Positions 48,690-56,009 of a DNA stretch of 64,000 bases are shown piece by piece (the stretch's first letter is position 1; every line of letters starts with the position of its first letter). Source of the DNA: Nitrososphaeraceae archaeon (GTDB taxonomy: Archaea > Thermoproteota > Nitrososphaeria > Nitrososphaerales > Nitrososphaeraceae). The stretch spans positions 1-64,000 of the forward strand of contig JAJPHM010000077.1 of NCBI GenBank assembly GCA_021325295.1, read 5' to 3'. Both the position numbers and the translations under genes were made by a program. The notes beneath the pieces are model-generated. The model searched no databases, was not told where the DNA came from, and worked only from the letters and a program-made list of their open reading frames with translations.

Positions 48690-48965
48690 CTACCTATCAT
48701 CAGCCGCAGTAAGCGCGTCGCCGCTTGCTATCAGCCCATCCATGTCGTTATATGTTCTCAGGAACATGGAGCCCTTTTGAGTGGTCCTGTAACTTTTGCT
48801 TCCTTCCTCATATTCGACAAGTCCATTCTCTACAAGTATAGAGAGATATTCCTTTAGCTGCGCATACGACAGGAAGGCTTTGTACATTATCTTGGTTTTT
48901 GTTGAACCATGCTCAGCAGCCTGCAGTATCTGGGATACAATGTCAGTTCTGCTACGGTATCTCAT
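48690..48965 (-). CDS. single-domain winged-helix regulator
   Basis: 91 residues beginning MRYRSRTDIVSQIL, sharing the core STKTKIMYKAFLSYAQLKEYL and YRTTQKGSMF with the 5159 protein. A typical HTH_45-like regulator of the phylum. It ends in a short polar tail. It is divergent from the phosphoesterase at 49133. Target unknown. Confidence 0.85.
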   Translation of the reverse strand: MRYRSRTDIVSQILQAAEHGSTKTKIMYKAFLSYAQLKEYLSILVENGLVEYEEGSKSYRTTQKGSMFLRTYNDMDGLIASGDALTAADDR

Positions 48966-49823: not shown

Positions 49824-50567
49824 TTGCAAGTGAGCTGCTCTATCGACTTCAAGTCGTTGAAAGGTCCCTTTTTGCTATACAAAAAAGTTGCCGAGCAGTA
49901 CAACGATCCTTGCATCCTGTCACATATCAGCGAATTGGTGCCTGAGGCTGTACTGAAGGATAAAGACATAATTCCAGCACTTCTGCGTTGGTTCAAGAGC
50001 GACTTTATGCACTGGGTTCCAAAAGTGATCAAATGCCCCAGATGCGCAGATAGAGGAAAAAATGGTAACGATACCACCATGGAGCCAGAAGTGATTGAAG
50101 GAACTTCATGGCAACTGCGCAAGGTCGAAGTTCACACCTGTCCAAAGTGCGGCGAAAAATACACCTTTCCAAGGTATGCCGAAGTCTTGAAAATAGCACA
50201 AACCAGAGCCGGCAGGTGCAGCGAATGGTCCATGCTATTTGGCGCTATCCTACAATCACTGTCGTTTCATACAAGAATTGTTCATGACTACCTTGACCAC
50301 TGCTGGAATGAAGTGATGCTAGATGGAAGGTGGATTCACATAGACTCCACTCTCCAGCTTCCCACCTCGTTTAACCACCCAAAGCACTATGAGCAGAACT
50401 GGGGCAAGGAATACTATTTTGTTTTCGCTTTTATGGCAGATAATATACAGGATGTTACTCTCTCCTATACAGAGCATTGGGCTCAAGTTCAAAAGAGGAG
50501 AATGTCACTTCAACACGGCGATGATTTGCTTCCGAATCTATTGAAGTTCTATCGTTCACTTTCGTAG
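49824..50567 (+). CDS. peptide:N-glycanase (PNGase/Png1) homologue, transglutaminase fold
   Basis: 247 residues, no signal peptide. The match to eukaryotic Png1 runs in order: LLRWFKSDFMHWV (53-65), zinc pairs C71/C74 (KCPRC) and C106/C109 (TCPKCG), FPRYAEV (115-121), nucleophile C132 in RAGRCSEW, H159 in LDHCWNEV, D174 in IHIDST, and QNWGKEYYFVFAF (191-203), like the GWGKK-YVIAF of Png1. All catalytic and zinc residues are present. Png1 removes N-glycans from misfolded proteins in the cytosol. No PUB or C-terminal PAW domain. The start is a TTG at 49824 with a box A-like GAATATTTCC about 20 bases upstream; GTG 49830 is possible. Confidence 0.88.
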   Translation: MQVSCSIDFKSLKGPFLLYKKVAEQYNDPCILSHISELVPEAVLKDKDIIPALLRWFKSDFMHWVPKVIKCPRCADRGKNGNDTTMEPEVIEGTSWQLRKVEVHTCPKCGEKYTFPRYAEVLKIAQTRAGRCSEWSMLFGAILQSLSFHTRIVHDYLDHCWNEVMLDGRWIHIDSTLQLPTSFNHPKHYEQNWGKEYYFVFAFMADNIQDVTLSYTEHWAQVQKRRMSLQHGDDLLPNLLKFYRSLS

Positions 50568-50607: not shown

Positions 50608-51960
50608 TCAATTCTTGGCCGGAGCAAACAAACTTAACCACTTTTTACTGAGAAACAGGCTCGAGAAAACTATTGCTGCCGCTAGGCCCTCTATTATTGT
50701 AAAGGCATAGAATGGAAGTGCATAATTGGCTGCAAACAGCATGCCTCCGGCGATTACTCCGACAAACTTTGCCAGGTTCCCTGACGAGTCATAGACAGAA
50801 AAGACAACTGGCTGTTTTTGGCGCGGAGTGAGGTCTATCTGGAGGGCTTCGTGAGTAGAGAGATAGTGTATGCCGGTTGCCACCATAGCTAGCGAGATTG
50901 CCAATATCCCAAGAAATGAATGAACAAGTGTAAAGAGTGCAGGAAGAGGCGCTGTCATAGCAATAGAGAGCACGAGAACGGTCCTTTTGTCTAGTCTATC
51001 GGCTAGCATTCCGAGCGGCACTCTCAATATATTAGCCAAGATCACCTGGGCGCTGACAATTATGCCCCACTGCAGGCTGCTCAGCTTCACAATGTCGGTA
51101 GCATAAAAGATAAAGTATGAGCCCACTATCGAATTGGCCACAGTCACAAGTACAAATGCAGACATAATGGGTACAAGCACAGCAGGTATGCTTGCAACAT
51201 TTTTAAGGAATGCAACTGGCGCGCGTGATACTGACCGGAAAACTGCCACAAGAGAAGCTGCTGGCTTGGCTGGATCTGTGGAGACGAGAGGCTTTGGATA
51301 ATTCTCAGCATTGTGCAATAGAGTCTTATCTTCTCGCAAGAAACGAAATAGGATAAATGTTACACAAAATGACAGGCCTGCGGCAATCACTGCTGCGATT
51401 CTAAAACCCGGTACCGTTCCAAACACGCTTACAAGATAACCCCCAATTATTGGAGAAAACATGGAAGGCAGACTGCCAAAGAGCTGGTAGGTTGACAGCT
51501 GTGTGGCCCGCCTCTTTGCAGTAGTTGAATCGGCAACCATTTGTCTTCCTGAAGGCAGGCTTATACTTGCAGTAGCTGCCAGAACCATTATGATAGCCAA
51601 TACAAACCAATCTCTAGAAAAGTAGTAGCCAACGAGCGCAGCAGGAGCTGCAAGTGAACTTGCGGCCAGTATTCTGGTCGGCCGGTGTCTATGCACAACT
51701 GCTCCACCAATGATGGTAAAAAAGGTGCCGACAAGCAGTCCCATGGCAGTAACTATGCCATACTGTGGGATAGACCCTCCAAGTGAAGTAAAATAGATGG
51801 GAAGAAACGTCAACGCAATTCCGTTGAGGCTTCCAAGCGAGCCTGCCAGTGACATTATACCCAGATTTCCACGTGGGATTGCACCCAGCAAATATTGAAT
51901 GCGAGGATGCGACAGTCCAATTCTATGTCTCTGCATTTCTCCTTCAGACTGCTTTGTCAC
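50608..51960 (-). CDS. MFS transporter
   Basis: 450 residues with about 12 hydrophobic segments. The loop after helix 2 has VHRHRPTRILAASSLAA, close to the MFS signature, and the central loop (residues about 205-245) is cytoplasmic. MADRLDKRTVLVLSI in the second half is the repeat of the signature. General drug or metabolite exporter by fold; substrate unknown. Convergent with the PNGase gene. Confidence 0.9.
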   Translation of the reverse strand: MTKQSEGEMQRHRIGLSHPRIQYLLGAIPRGNLGIMSLAGSLGSLNGIALTFLPIYFTSLGGSIPQYGIVTAMGLLVGTFFTIIGGAVVHRHRPTRILAASSLAAPAALVGYYFSRDWFVLAIIMVLAATASISLPSGRQMVADSTTAKRRATQLSTYQLFGSLPSMFSPIIGGYLVSVFGTVPGFRIAAVIAAGLSFCVTFILFRFLREDKTLLHNAENYPKPLVSTDPAKPAASLVAVFRSVSRAPVAFLKNVASIPAVLVPIMSAFVLVTVANSIVGSYFIFYATDIVKLSSLQWGIIVSAQVILANILRVPLGMLADRLDKRTVLVLSIAMTAPLPALFTLVHSFLGILAISLAMVATGIHYLSTHEALQIDLTPRQKQPVVFSVYDSSGNLAKFVGVIAGGMLFAANYALPFYAFTIIEGLAAAIVFSSLFLSKKWLSLFAPAKN

Positions 51961-52876: not shown

Positions 52877-53389
52877 ATGTCAACCACAACCATAACCAAA
52901 CCATTACAGGGTCGCGACACAGTACAAGTTGGTTTGCACTTTCCTTTGAATACAGAGTCTGCCGGCAATCAGCAGAGGCAAGAGGTCTTTTCTGCCAATA
53001 CATTGCTTGTTGGCCAAAAGAGAGCAGGCCATTACCTTGCTCCTGCAATTTTGAGGCTAGAATCATCAGACAAGCTAGTCATTAGAGCAAGGGGAAGCCT
53101 GAATATCTCTACTGCTGTCGATGTAGCCGAGATTGTGAGGAAGAATATCAAAAACGTAATAGTAGAGTCTATACAGCTCGGAACAGAAGAGCTTGCTGAC
53201 AGTACACTTCAGATCAAGAGAAGGCTCTCATTCATTGAAATCCAGATCGCAAAGAATCAGGCTACAGCTGGTGTTTCTCAAGAGGAAACTGTAAAGAAAC
53301 CCAGCCAAGGCAAAAAGACAAAGACATCAGTGGCAAGAAAGCAAAACAAAAAGAAGAAAAAAGAGTCTCAGACAGGCGCTTCTGCCTGA
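52877..53389 (+). CDS. Alba-family DNA/RNA-binding protein
   Basis: 170 residues. The Alba core is at about 40-135: NTLLVGQKRAGHYLAPAIL, KLVIRARGSLNISTAVDVAE, IVRKNIKNVIVESIQLGTEE. A 35-residue N-terminal extension and a long Lys-rich tail (GKKTKTSVARKQNKKKKK) make it larger than the usual 90-residue Alba. It compacts chromatin or binds RNA. A second core-size Alba gene would be expected elsewhere; this one is the long variant. Confidence 0.92.
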   Translation: MSTTTITKPLQGRDTVQVGLHFPLNTESAGNQQRQEVFSANTLLVGQKRAGHYLAPAILRLESSDKLVIRARGSLNISTAVDVAEIVRKNIKNVIVESIQLGTEELADSTLQIKRRLSFIEIQIAKNQATAGVSQEETVKKPSQGKKTKTSVARKQNKKKKKESQTGASA

Positions 53390-55307: not shown

Positions 55308-56009
55308 GTGAGCGCTCAGAACCATTTCTGGGTAGGGTCCCTATGTTATGCTAATGCGCGTGGAAGTCCCACATTTCCGGGTTTTGTCATTGCTACAACC
55401 GATATCATAAAGCCAGTTGAAGATCTTGGCAATAATATCCCTGACAGGTCTTGGATGCTCTATCTTTTGGAGCTTTTCAACCAGCAGAATATCGCAGTTG
55501 AGCTAAATTTGATCTGCGAGTTCAATGACAAAAATAATTTCTGGGCTATTTATTCTGGTGTAAACCAGTACAGATTCACAAAGGTTCTGCCTATAGTTGG
55601 GCATTCATACCATAGGCAGATCGTAATGTTCAATCATACTGGAATAATCCAGTATTCAGTTAGAGATCTTGGTACAGGTGAATCTGAAACATTTGAGTTG
55701 AAGTTGCCGTATCAAAGCCAGTTTTATGGTATAAATAATTTCACCGGCATTGAATGGTGGAATCGGTCAGGAGACAAGCCTTTCCCTTTGCGCTACAAGG
55801 TCGAGATTTCCCAGTTAATGTACGGCCAAGGTTCATTTGATGATCCAGATTCTGTTACGTTCAGACCCTTCAACATACTTGTCCCAAACAGCGAGAATTC
55901 GGTAGCCGCCTATCCCGTTGCCTTTGAACCTGTCCGGATCGTAGATGGCTATATTTCGTATATTGTCGGCTCAGGCAACTGTCATCAAGGTCCAAGATTC
56001 TACAGCTAG
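55308..56009 (+). CDS. hypothetical beta-rich protein
   Basis: 233 residues from GTG 55308. No signal peptide. Long beta-like stretches with many aromatic residues (HFWVGSLCYANARG, FWAIYSGVNQYRFTKVLP, QIVMFNHTGIIQYSVRD, FTGIEWWNRSG, PFPLRYKVEISQLMYG). The alternation suggests a beta-sandwich (lectin/concanavalin-like), possibly carbohydrate-binding. I do not recognise a family. Isolated gene. Confidence 0.65.
   Translation: MSAQNHFWVGSLCYANARGSPTFPGFVIATTDIIKPVEDLGNNIPDRSWMLYLLELFNQQNIAVELNLICEFNDKNNFWAIYSGVNQYRFTKVLPIVGHSYHRQIVMFNHTGIIQYSVRDLGTGESETFELKLPYQSQFYGINNFTGIEWWNRSGDKPFPLRYKVEISQLMYGQGSFDDPDSVTFRPFNILVPNSENSVAAYPVAFEPVRIVDGYISYIVGSGNCHQGPRFYS

Follow-up and report, generated by a model that had tools for sequence, protein, structure and literature searches.

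A core-only member of the Png1/NGLY1 peptide:N-glycanase family encoded by an archaeon of the Nitrososphaeraceae

The window, a stretch of 64,000 nucleotides from a Nitrososphaeraceae archaeon, carries a gene for a 247-residue protein that begins with a TTG codon (Table 1). The open frame has no in-frame start upstream of this TTG, and the resulting N-terminus (MQSSCS...) aligns with the MQVSCS... of orthologues that start with ATG. A preliminary description of this DNA had read the frame as a eukaryote-type peptide:N-glycanase (PNGase), and we found the frame where it had been placed together with every motif that had been listed for it: LLRWFKSDF..HWV, the pairs C71xxC74 and C106xxC109, FPRY, RAGRC132SEW, LDH159CWNEV, IHID174ST and NWGK. 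The gene is present in single copy in the 2.69 Mb genome (99.7% complete), and its product is the sole Transglut_core protein found there. The host is a soil archaeon related to the ammonia oxidizers, and its genome belongs to a family designated f1, which also holds Nitrosocosmicus and Nitrosopolaris. The hydropathy of the protein reaches a maximum of 0.96 over 19 residues, and it has no signal peptide, transmembrane or hydrophobic segment. Given the absence of a hydrophobic segment, the enzyme is predicted to be cytosolic.

Table 1 Features of the PNGase locus and of other genes in the window.
Feature	Coordinates	Strand	Basis or remark
Core-only archaeal peptide:N-glycanase (Png1/NGLY1 family)	49824..50567	+	Sequence searches, AlphaFold/Foldseek, residue alignment, hydropathy
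First zinc pair C71-P-R-C74 (= yeast C129/C132)	50034..50045	+	Alignment; predicted metal site
Second zinc pair C106-P-K-C109 (= yeast C165/C168)	50139..50150	+	Alignment; predicted metal site
Catalytic nucleophile C132 (= yeast C191)	50217..50219	+	Alignment; yeast residue from PMC2791212
Catalytic H159 (= yeast H218)	50298..50300	+	Alignment
Catalytic D174 (= yeast D235)	50343..50345	+	Alignment
MFS transporter, tail-to-tail with the PNGase gene, 40 bp gap	50608..51960	-	Neighborhood and homologue searches
Cytochrome P450	46531..47979	+	Pfam 4.2e-82; best NCBIfam match an albaflavenone-monooxygenase model, below cut-off
Sso10a/HTH_45 chromatin-type protein	48690..48965	-	
Alba-domain protein	52877..53389	+	26.8 bits versus Pfam cut-off of 25; C-terminal tail basic
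Protein with no Pfam match	55308..56009	+	About 5 kb downstream of the PNGase gene

The family assignment was approached by sequence and by predicted fold. A phmmer search of the PDB with the single sequence returned mouse PNGase (E 1.5e-31) and yeast PNGase (9.2e-28), with one further, marginal match at E 0.11. Upon searching with a profile of 18 archaeal orthologues the same two proteins scored 9.4e-44 and 2.4e-40, respectively, and the next match 0.012. An AlphaFold model made from 38 orthologues (pLDDT 92.7, pTM 0.90) was then compared with known folds, the preliminary description having proposed a comparison with yeast Png1, and this high-confidence model matched PNGases first. By use of Foldseek, four PNGase chains of mouse and yeast headed the ranking (1.1e-15 to 2.6e-13), followed by XPC/Rad4 proteins at 2.4e-5 or weaker (to 1e-3) and then by generic transglutaminases. 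The single-sequence, profile and Foldseek results rule out a chance or generic transglutaminase match. An identity as XPC/Rad4 was also rejected, the Rad4 Pfam model giving 22.6 bits (below the cut-off of 27) and the NCBIfam rad4 model 24.3 versus a cut-off of 400, with no extra domains in the 247 residues.

It is very improbable that we are dealing with an ordinary archaeal transglutaminase-like protein having a superficial likeness to Png1. The superfamily is widespread and, upon scanning the window protein, Pfam gave Transglut_core alone (7.3e-12, with a sub-threshold Rad4 match) and NCBIfam gave nothing specific. However, the PDB searches, the Foldseek ranking and the residue alignment contradict this reading. 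PNGase can be aligned with both zinc pairs and with the region that precedes the core. The other archaeal members of the superfamily that were inspected have neither and give much lower scores, and the core identity of the window's group averages 41% with eukaryotic PNGase, as compared with 31-36% with other archaeal groups. On the grounds of sequence and predicted fold, we assign the window protein to the Png1/NGLY1 family.

To place individual residues, yeast numbers were taken from PMC9102325 and PMC2791212 and mapped as the PDB chain index plus 7. The zinc cysteines of yeast Png1 (Cys129, 132, 165 and 168) align with C71, C74, C106 and C109 of the window protein and the yeast catalytic triad C191/H218/D235 aligns with C132/H159/D174. 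Likewise, yeast R210, W220, E222 and W231 align with R151, W161, E163 and W170, which are also the counterparts of Dictyostelium PNGase R229, W239, E241 and W248, residues that are conserved and possibly essential (PMC3502110). All eleven positions (the four zinc cysteines, the triad, R151, W161, E163 and W170) are among 28 columns that are invariant in yeast, mouse and 38 archaeal proteins. The preliminary description had also claimed the order and spacing of eukaryotic Png1, and this was borne out by intervals of 32-23-27-15 in the window protein versus 33-23-27-17 in yeast, the Cys-His spacing of 27 being the same in both and the His-Asp spacing being 15 versus 17. The window protein is 36.6% identical to yeast Png1 (over 161 residues) and 34.7% identical to the mouse enzyme, as compared with 50% between yeast and mouse in the same region, and is 43-53% identical to the 37 aligned archaeal orthologues. 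All of the archaeal relatives retain the Png1-like blocks, both zinc pairs included. Judging from the alignment, the two CxxC pairs would bind zinc.

Yeast Png1 (PDB 1x3w, 3esw) shares with the window protein a zinc domain having two CxxC pairs, the core, the C-H-D triad and its spacing, the Arg/Trp/Glu residues and the lack of PUB and PAW domains. It differs in length (363 versus 247 residues), and the window protein belongs to an archaeal host that has no ER or ERAD and in some archaeal lineages is accompanied by an MFS neighbor. A search of the window's genome for the XPC-binding domain of Rad23 gave no match, as was also the case in the control genomes. The mouse NGLY1 core (PDB 2f4m) was the best match by both sequence (1.5e-31) and structure (Foldseek 1.1e-15), whereas animal NGLY1 has PUB and PAW domains, neither of which gave a Pfam match in the window protein up to an E value of 1. 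Fungal and plant PNGases likewise do without PUB and PAW (PMC9102325), and hence the absence of these domains rules out only the animal NGLY1 subtype. From its sequence, the window protein appears to be a core-only cytosolic enzyme resembling the fungal form. The XPC/Rad4 transglutaminase domain has the same fold and ranked just after the PNGases in the Foldseek search, but it belongs to DNA-repair proteins and its core is reportedly inactivated, whereas in the window protein the triad and the zinc pairs are intact and the similarity to PNGase is much greater. Bacterial PNGase F would catalyze the same reaction as that proposed below, but is a secreted protein that has acidic catalytic residues and a beta-sandwich fold of no relation to that of Png1 (PMC9102325). 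An enzyme of the PNGase F type was rejected owing to this difference in fold.

A second archaeal group, proteins of about 165 residues from two Thermoproteota families (f47 and f57; alignment A4), has a core that strongly resembles that of PNGase, preceded by a helix at the N-terminus. These short forms lack the zinc domain but keep Cys, His and Asp in the core (36% core identity to the window's group) and show no membrane anchor. A profile of them searched against the PDB gave mouse PNGase as the best match at 3.7e-25. The short forms (L038-L044 and L102-L108) are strongly conserved, with 54-96% identity to the first member. The claim that the window protein is much closer to Png1 than are the general archaeal transglutaminase-like proteins was supported, but in the catalytic core the gap proved smaller than claimed. 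Mean core identities were 41.3% between the eukaryotic and Nitrososphaerales PNGases, 37.9% between the eukaryotic enzymes and the short forms and 35.8% between the Nitrososphaerales proteins and the short forms.

Trees of the core were built with yeast and mouse (opisthokonts) as the only eukaryotes, with no Asgard sequences and with the zinc domain left out. The Nitrososphaerales proteins formed one clade (99/95). In the best tree the archaeal PNGases, yeast and mouse stood together against other archaeal cores with support of 93/80 (104 columns, two eukaryotes), and in another tree the grouping of Nitrososphaerales with yeast and mouse received 82/96 (SH-aLRT/bootstrap). Hence, the PNGase-core tree called for in the preliminary description joined the archaeal clade to the yeast and mouse enzymes and not to other archaeal cores, but AU tests rejected neither a placement of the eukaryotes with the short forms (p 0.08) nor one of Nitrososphaerales with the short forms (p 0.07). 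The grouping of Nitrososphaerales with eukaryotes is favored by the zinc domain that both have in common.

The gene has a patchy distribution. Matches were found in 43 of 400 genomes of the class, all except one very weak match lying in family f1 or in a second family, f2. Those in f2, save for one degraded fragment, fall in a single genus of Nitrosopumilaceae (g20), probably Nitrosotalea-like archaea of acid soils. A profile search detected PNGase in 35 of the 70 f1 genomes, some of these copies being broken, and in 11 of the 37 g20 genomes. Among 398 Thermoproteota genomes the matches outside of the order Nitrososphaerales span the transglutaminase core only, and the zinc domain is absent from those inspected. 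A two-motif scan of 84,980 species gave 40 loci, all of them in Nitrososphaeria/Thaumarchaeota records, with patterns built from yeast and archaeal motifs that a mouse-type motif would escape, so that absence from Asgard archaea or bacteria is not implied. Named records carrying the gene are mostly of soil-type lineages. No relative was found in plasmid records, phage records or IMG/VR and PHROGs gave a weak match only; hence nothing points to a gene of mobile elements.

In genus g4 the gene is missing from three complete genomes (G131, G108 and G135), which from their sizes appear to be Nitrososphaera species, and PNGase would thus not be required for N-glycan synthesis. Copies that are broken or fragmentary, being interrupted by stop codons or matched over a short length, were seen at G242:C75, G725:C577 and G182:C84. 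The broken copies suggest recurrent loss. As half of the f1 genomes lack PNGase and some copies (G242, G725) are broken, the gene is dispensable.

This distribution and the core trees bear on the origin of the enzyme. It is quite possible that an ancestor of these archaea gained PNGase from a eukaryote and that the gene later spread and was lost among soil Nitrososphaerales. The patchiness (35/70 in f1 and 11/37 in g20), the lack of a zinc-domain form elsewhere in the 398 Thermoproteota genomes and the preponderance of carriers among soil-type lineages, where eukaryotes abound, are consistent with such a transfer. However, the archaeal proteins form a single deep clade (99/95) that is not nested with yeast or mouse, the sole eukaryotes in the tree, and the eukaryote-specific PUB and PAW domains were not carried along. 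More tentatively, the eukaryotic enzyme may have its ancestor in an archaeal PNGase like the present one, with loss from most other archaea. The sister relationship of the archaeal clade and eukaryotic PNGase against other archaeal cores in the best tree (93/80) argues for this descent, as do the further PNGase-like core found elsewhere in Thermoproteota and the chitobiose-type N-glycan core common to Nitrososphaerota, Thermoproteota and eukaryotes (PMC12153357, PMC8993221). Archaeal ancestry would nevertheless require many losses, because in the searches made, which held no Asgard sequences, the zinc-domain form is limited to one order.

The gene most closely tied to PNGase encodes the convergent MFS transporter. 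Close homologues of this transporter, counted at E up to 1e-40, were present in 11 genomes (9 of the 37 in g20 and 2 of the 70 in f1), in each of which the transporter gene lay tail-to-tail with the PNGase gene across a gap of about 9-80 bp. This MFS family was detected in none of the 61 PNGase-negative genomes of f1 and g20, and the co-occurrence of the two genes within g20 gave a Fisher p of 4e-7, a value that ignores relatedness. Conversely, PNGase was found without the transporter in 33 of the 35 PNGase-positive f1 genomes and in two incomplete g20 genomes. As PNGase often occurs without the MFS protein and the MFS protein never without PNGase, the dependence is one-way, which fits an MFS protein that would transport the PNGase product. 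It is also possible that the pair are neighbors inherited together without functional coupling, and their co-occurrence may reflect few evolutionary events. Against the PDB the MFS protein had no relative at E 0.01.

Elsewhere the surroundings vary. Several Nitrosocosmicus-type loci have a Peptidase_M1 gene divergent from that of PNGase. At L081, L092, L093 and L097 a long protein is encoded divergently beside PNGase, and the copy that was scanned (L093) comprised Peptidase_M1 and HEAT repeats. The upstream neighbors (metallophosphoesterase and Sso10a-like) and most neighbors in other genera showed sparse conservation or none. An Sso10a/HTH_45 chromatin-type protein like that of the window also occurs in PNGase loci L083, L087 and L088. 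The window protein without a Pfam match (Table 1) is 50% identical to the product of L082:4017-4763, a gene that lies directly upstream of PNGase in that locus.

Given these data, we consider it likely that the window protein is an authentic archaeal protein of the Png1/NGLY1 family, a zinc-stabilized amidase of the transglutaminase fold (C132-H159-D174) that probably cuts N-glycans off peptides or unfolded proteins, most likely in a catabolic role. From the foregoing we infer the amidase activity, the glycopeptide substrate, the transporter cargo and the physiological role. The proposed cytosolic reaction is hydrolysis of the beta-aspartylglucosamine bond in peptides or unfolded proteins that carry N-glycans. 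The glycosylated Asn would become Asp and the glycan would leave as a glycosylamine, which would give the free sugar plus ammonia. Clearance of the N-glycan would allow peptidases to finish glycopeptides that arise from S-layer turnover or soil uptake and, in some lineages, the tail-to-tail MFS protein would transport the freed glycan or one of its breakdown products. Catabolism of N-glycopeptides is favored over a quality-control role because we know of no archaeal retrotranslocation route, because these archaea can do without the gene, and because it is linked to genes for a transporter and, elsewhere, for an aminopeptidase-type protein.

Archaeal N-glycosylation takes place outside of the cell. 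The window genome encodes an STT3/AglB oligosaccharyltransferase (1.7e-29) and a Nitrososphaera relative has S-layer N-glycans with a chitobiose-type core (PMC12153357). Hence, a plausible class of substrate exists in the family, though a modified one: the sole characterized Nitrososphaeraceae N-glycan has a modified core of di-N-acetylated sugars in which the second sugar is uronic (PMC12153357). In Sulfolobales the chitobiose core is made by Agl24 (PMC8993221). It might be that a Png1-type enzyme would not accept the modified Nitrososphaeraceae core, and the best-studied N-glycan producer seems to be without a PNGase gene.

We regard it as unlikely that the protein belongs to the Png1 family by descent but is no longer a glycanase, its core acting instead on proteins that carry no glycan, as a protease, isopeptidase, deamidase or transamidase. 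The transglutaminase fold supports several amide chemistries, a transglutaminase activity has also been reported for Arabidopsis PNG1 (PMC9102325), activity has been lost in filamentous-fungal Ngly1 proteins (PMC9102325), and archaea also have a zinc-less family built on such a core, to which no function is assigned. However, no residue of the triad, of the zinc cysteine quartet or of the Arg/Trp/Glu set varies among 38 archaeal orthologues, a full conservation that a change of function would not predict. We thus prefer the glycanase assignment.

In the open-licence literature we found no report of an archaeal cytosolic PNGase, and some members may already be labelled by automatic database annotation. 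The protein belongs to a known enzyme family, and what is new is its occurrence in a domain of life where it was not expected. Descriptions of Png1/NGLY1 generally present it as an enzyme of eukaryotic quality control that cuts sugar chains off misfolded proteins and the deficiency of which causes disease in humans. A bolder proposal, which as a whole we think rather doubtful, is that soil Nitrososphaerales would carry out cytosolic glycoprotein catabolism by means of a Png1-type enzyme, coupled in some lineages to an MFS protein dedicated to export or import of the released glycan, and that the eukaryotic ERAD deglycosylase would descend from this enzyme. The presence of the full set of catalytic and zinc residues in organisms whose protein glycosylation is confined to the outside of the cell raises the question of what a cytosolic deglycosylase did before, or does without, ER-associated degradation. 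As a relative in the same family has a eukaryote-like chitobiose-type N-glycan core, the origin of eukaryotic N-glycan removal becomes directly testable, and the linked MFS transporter offers a tangible way to learn what becomes of the glycan.
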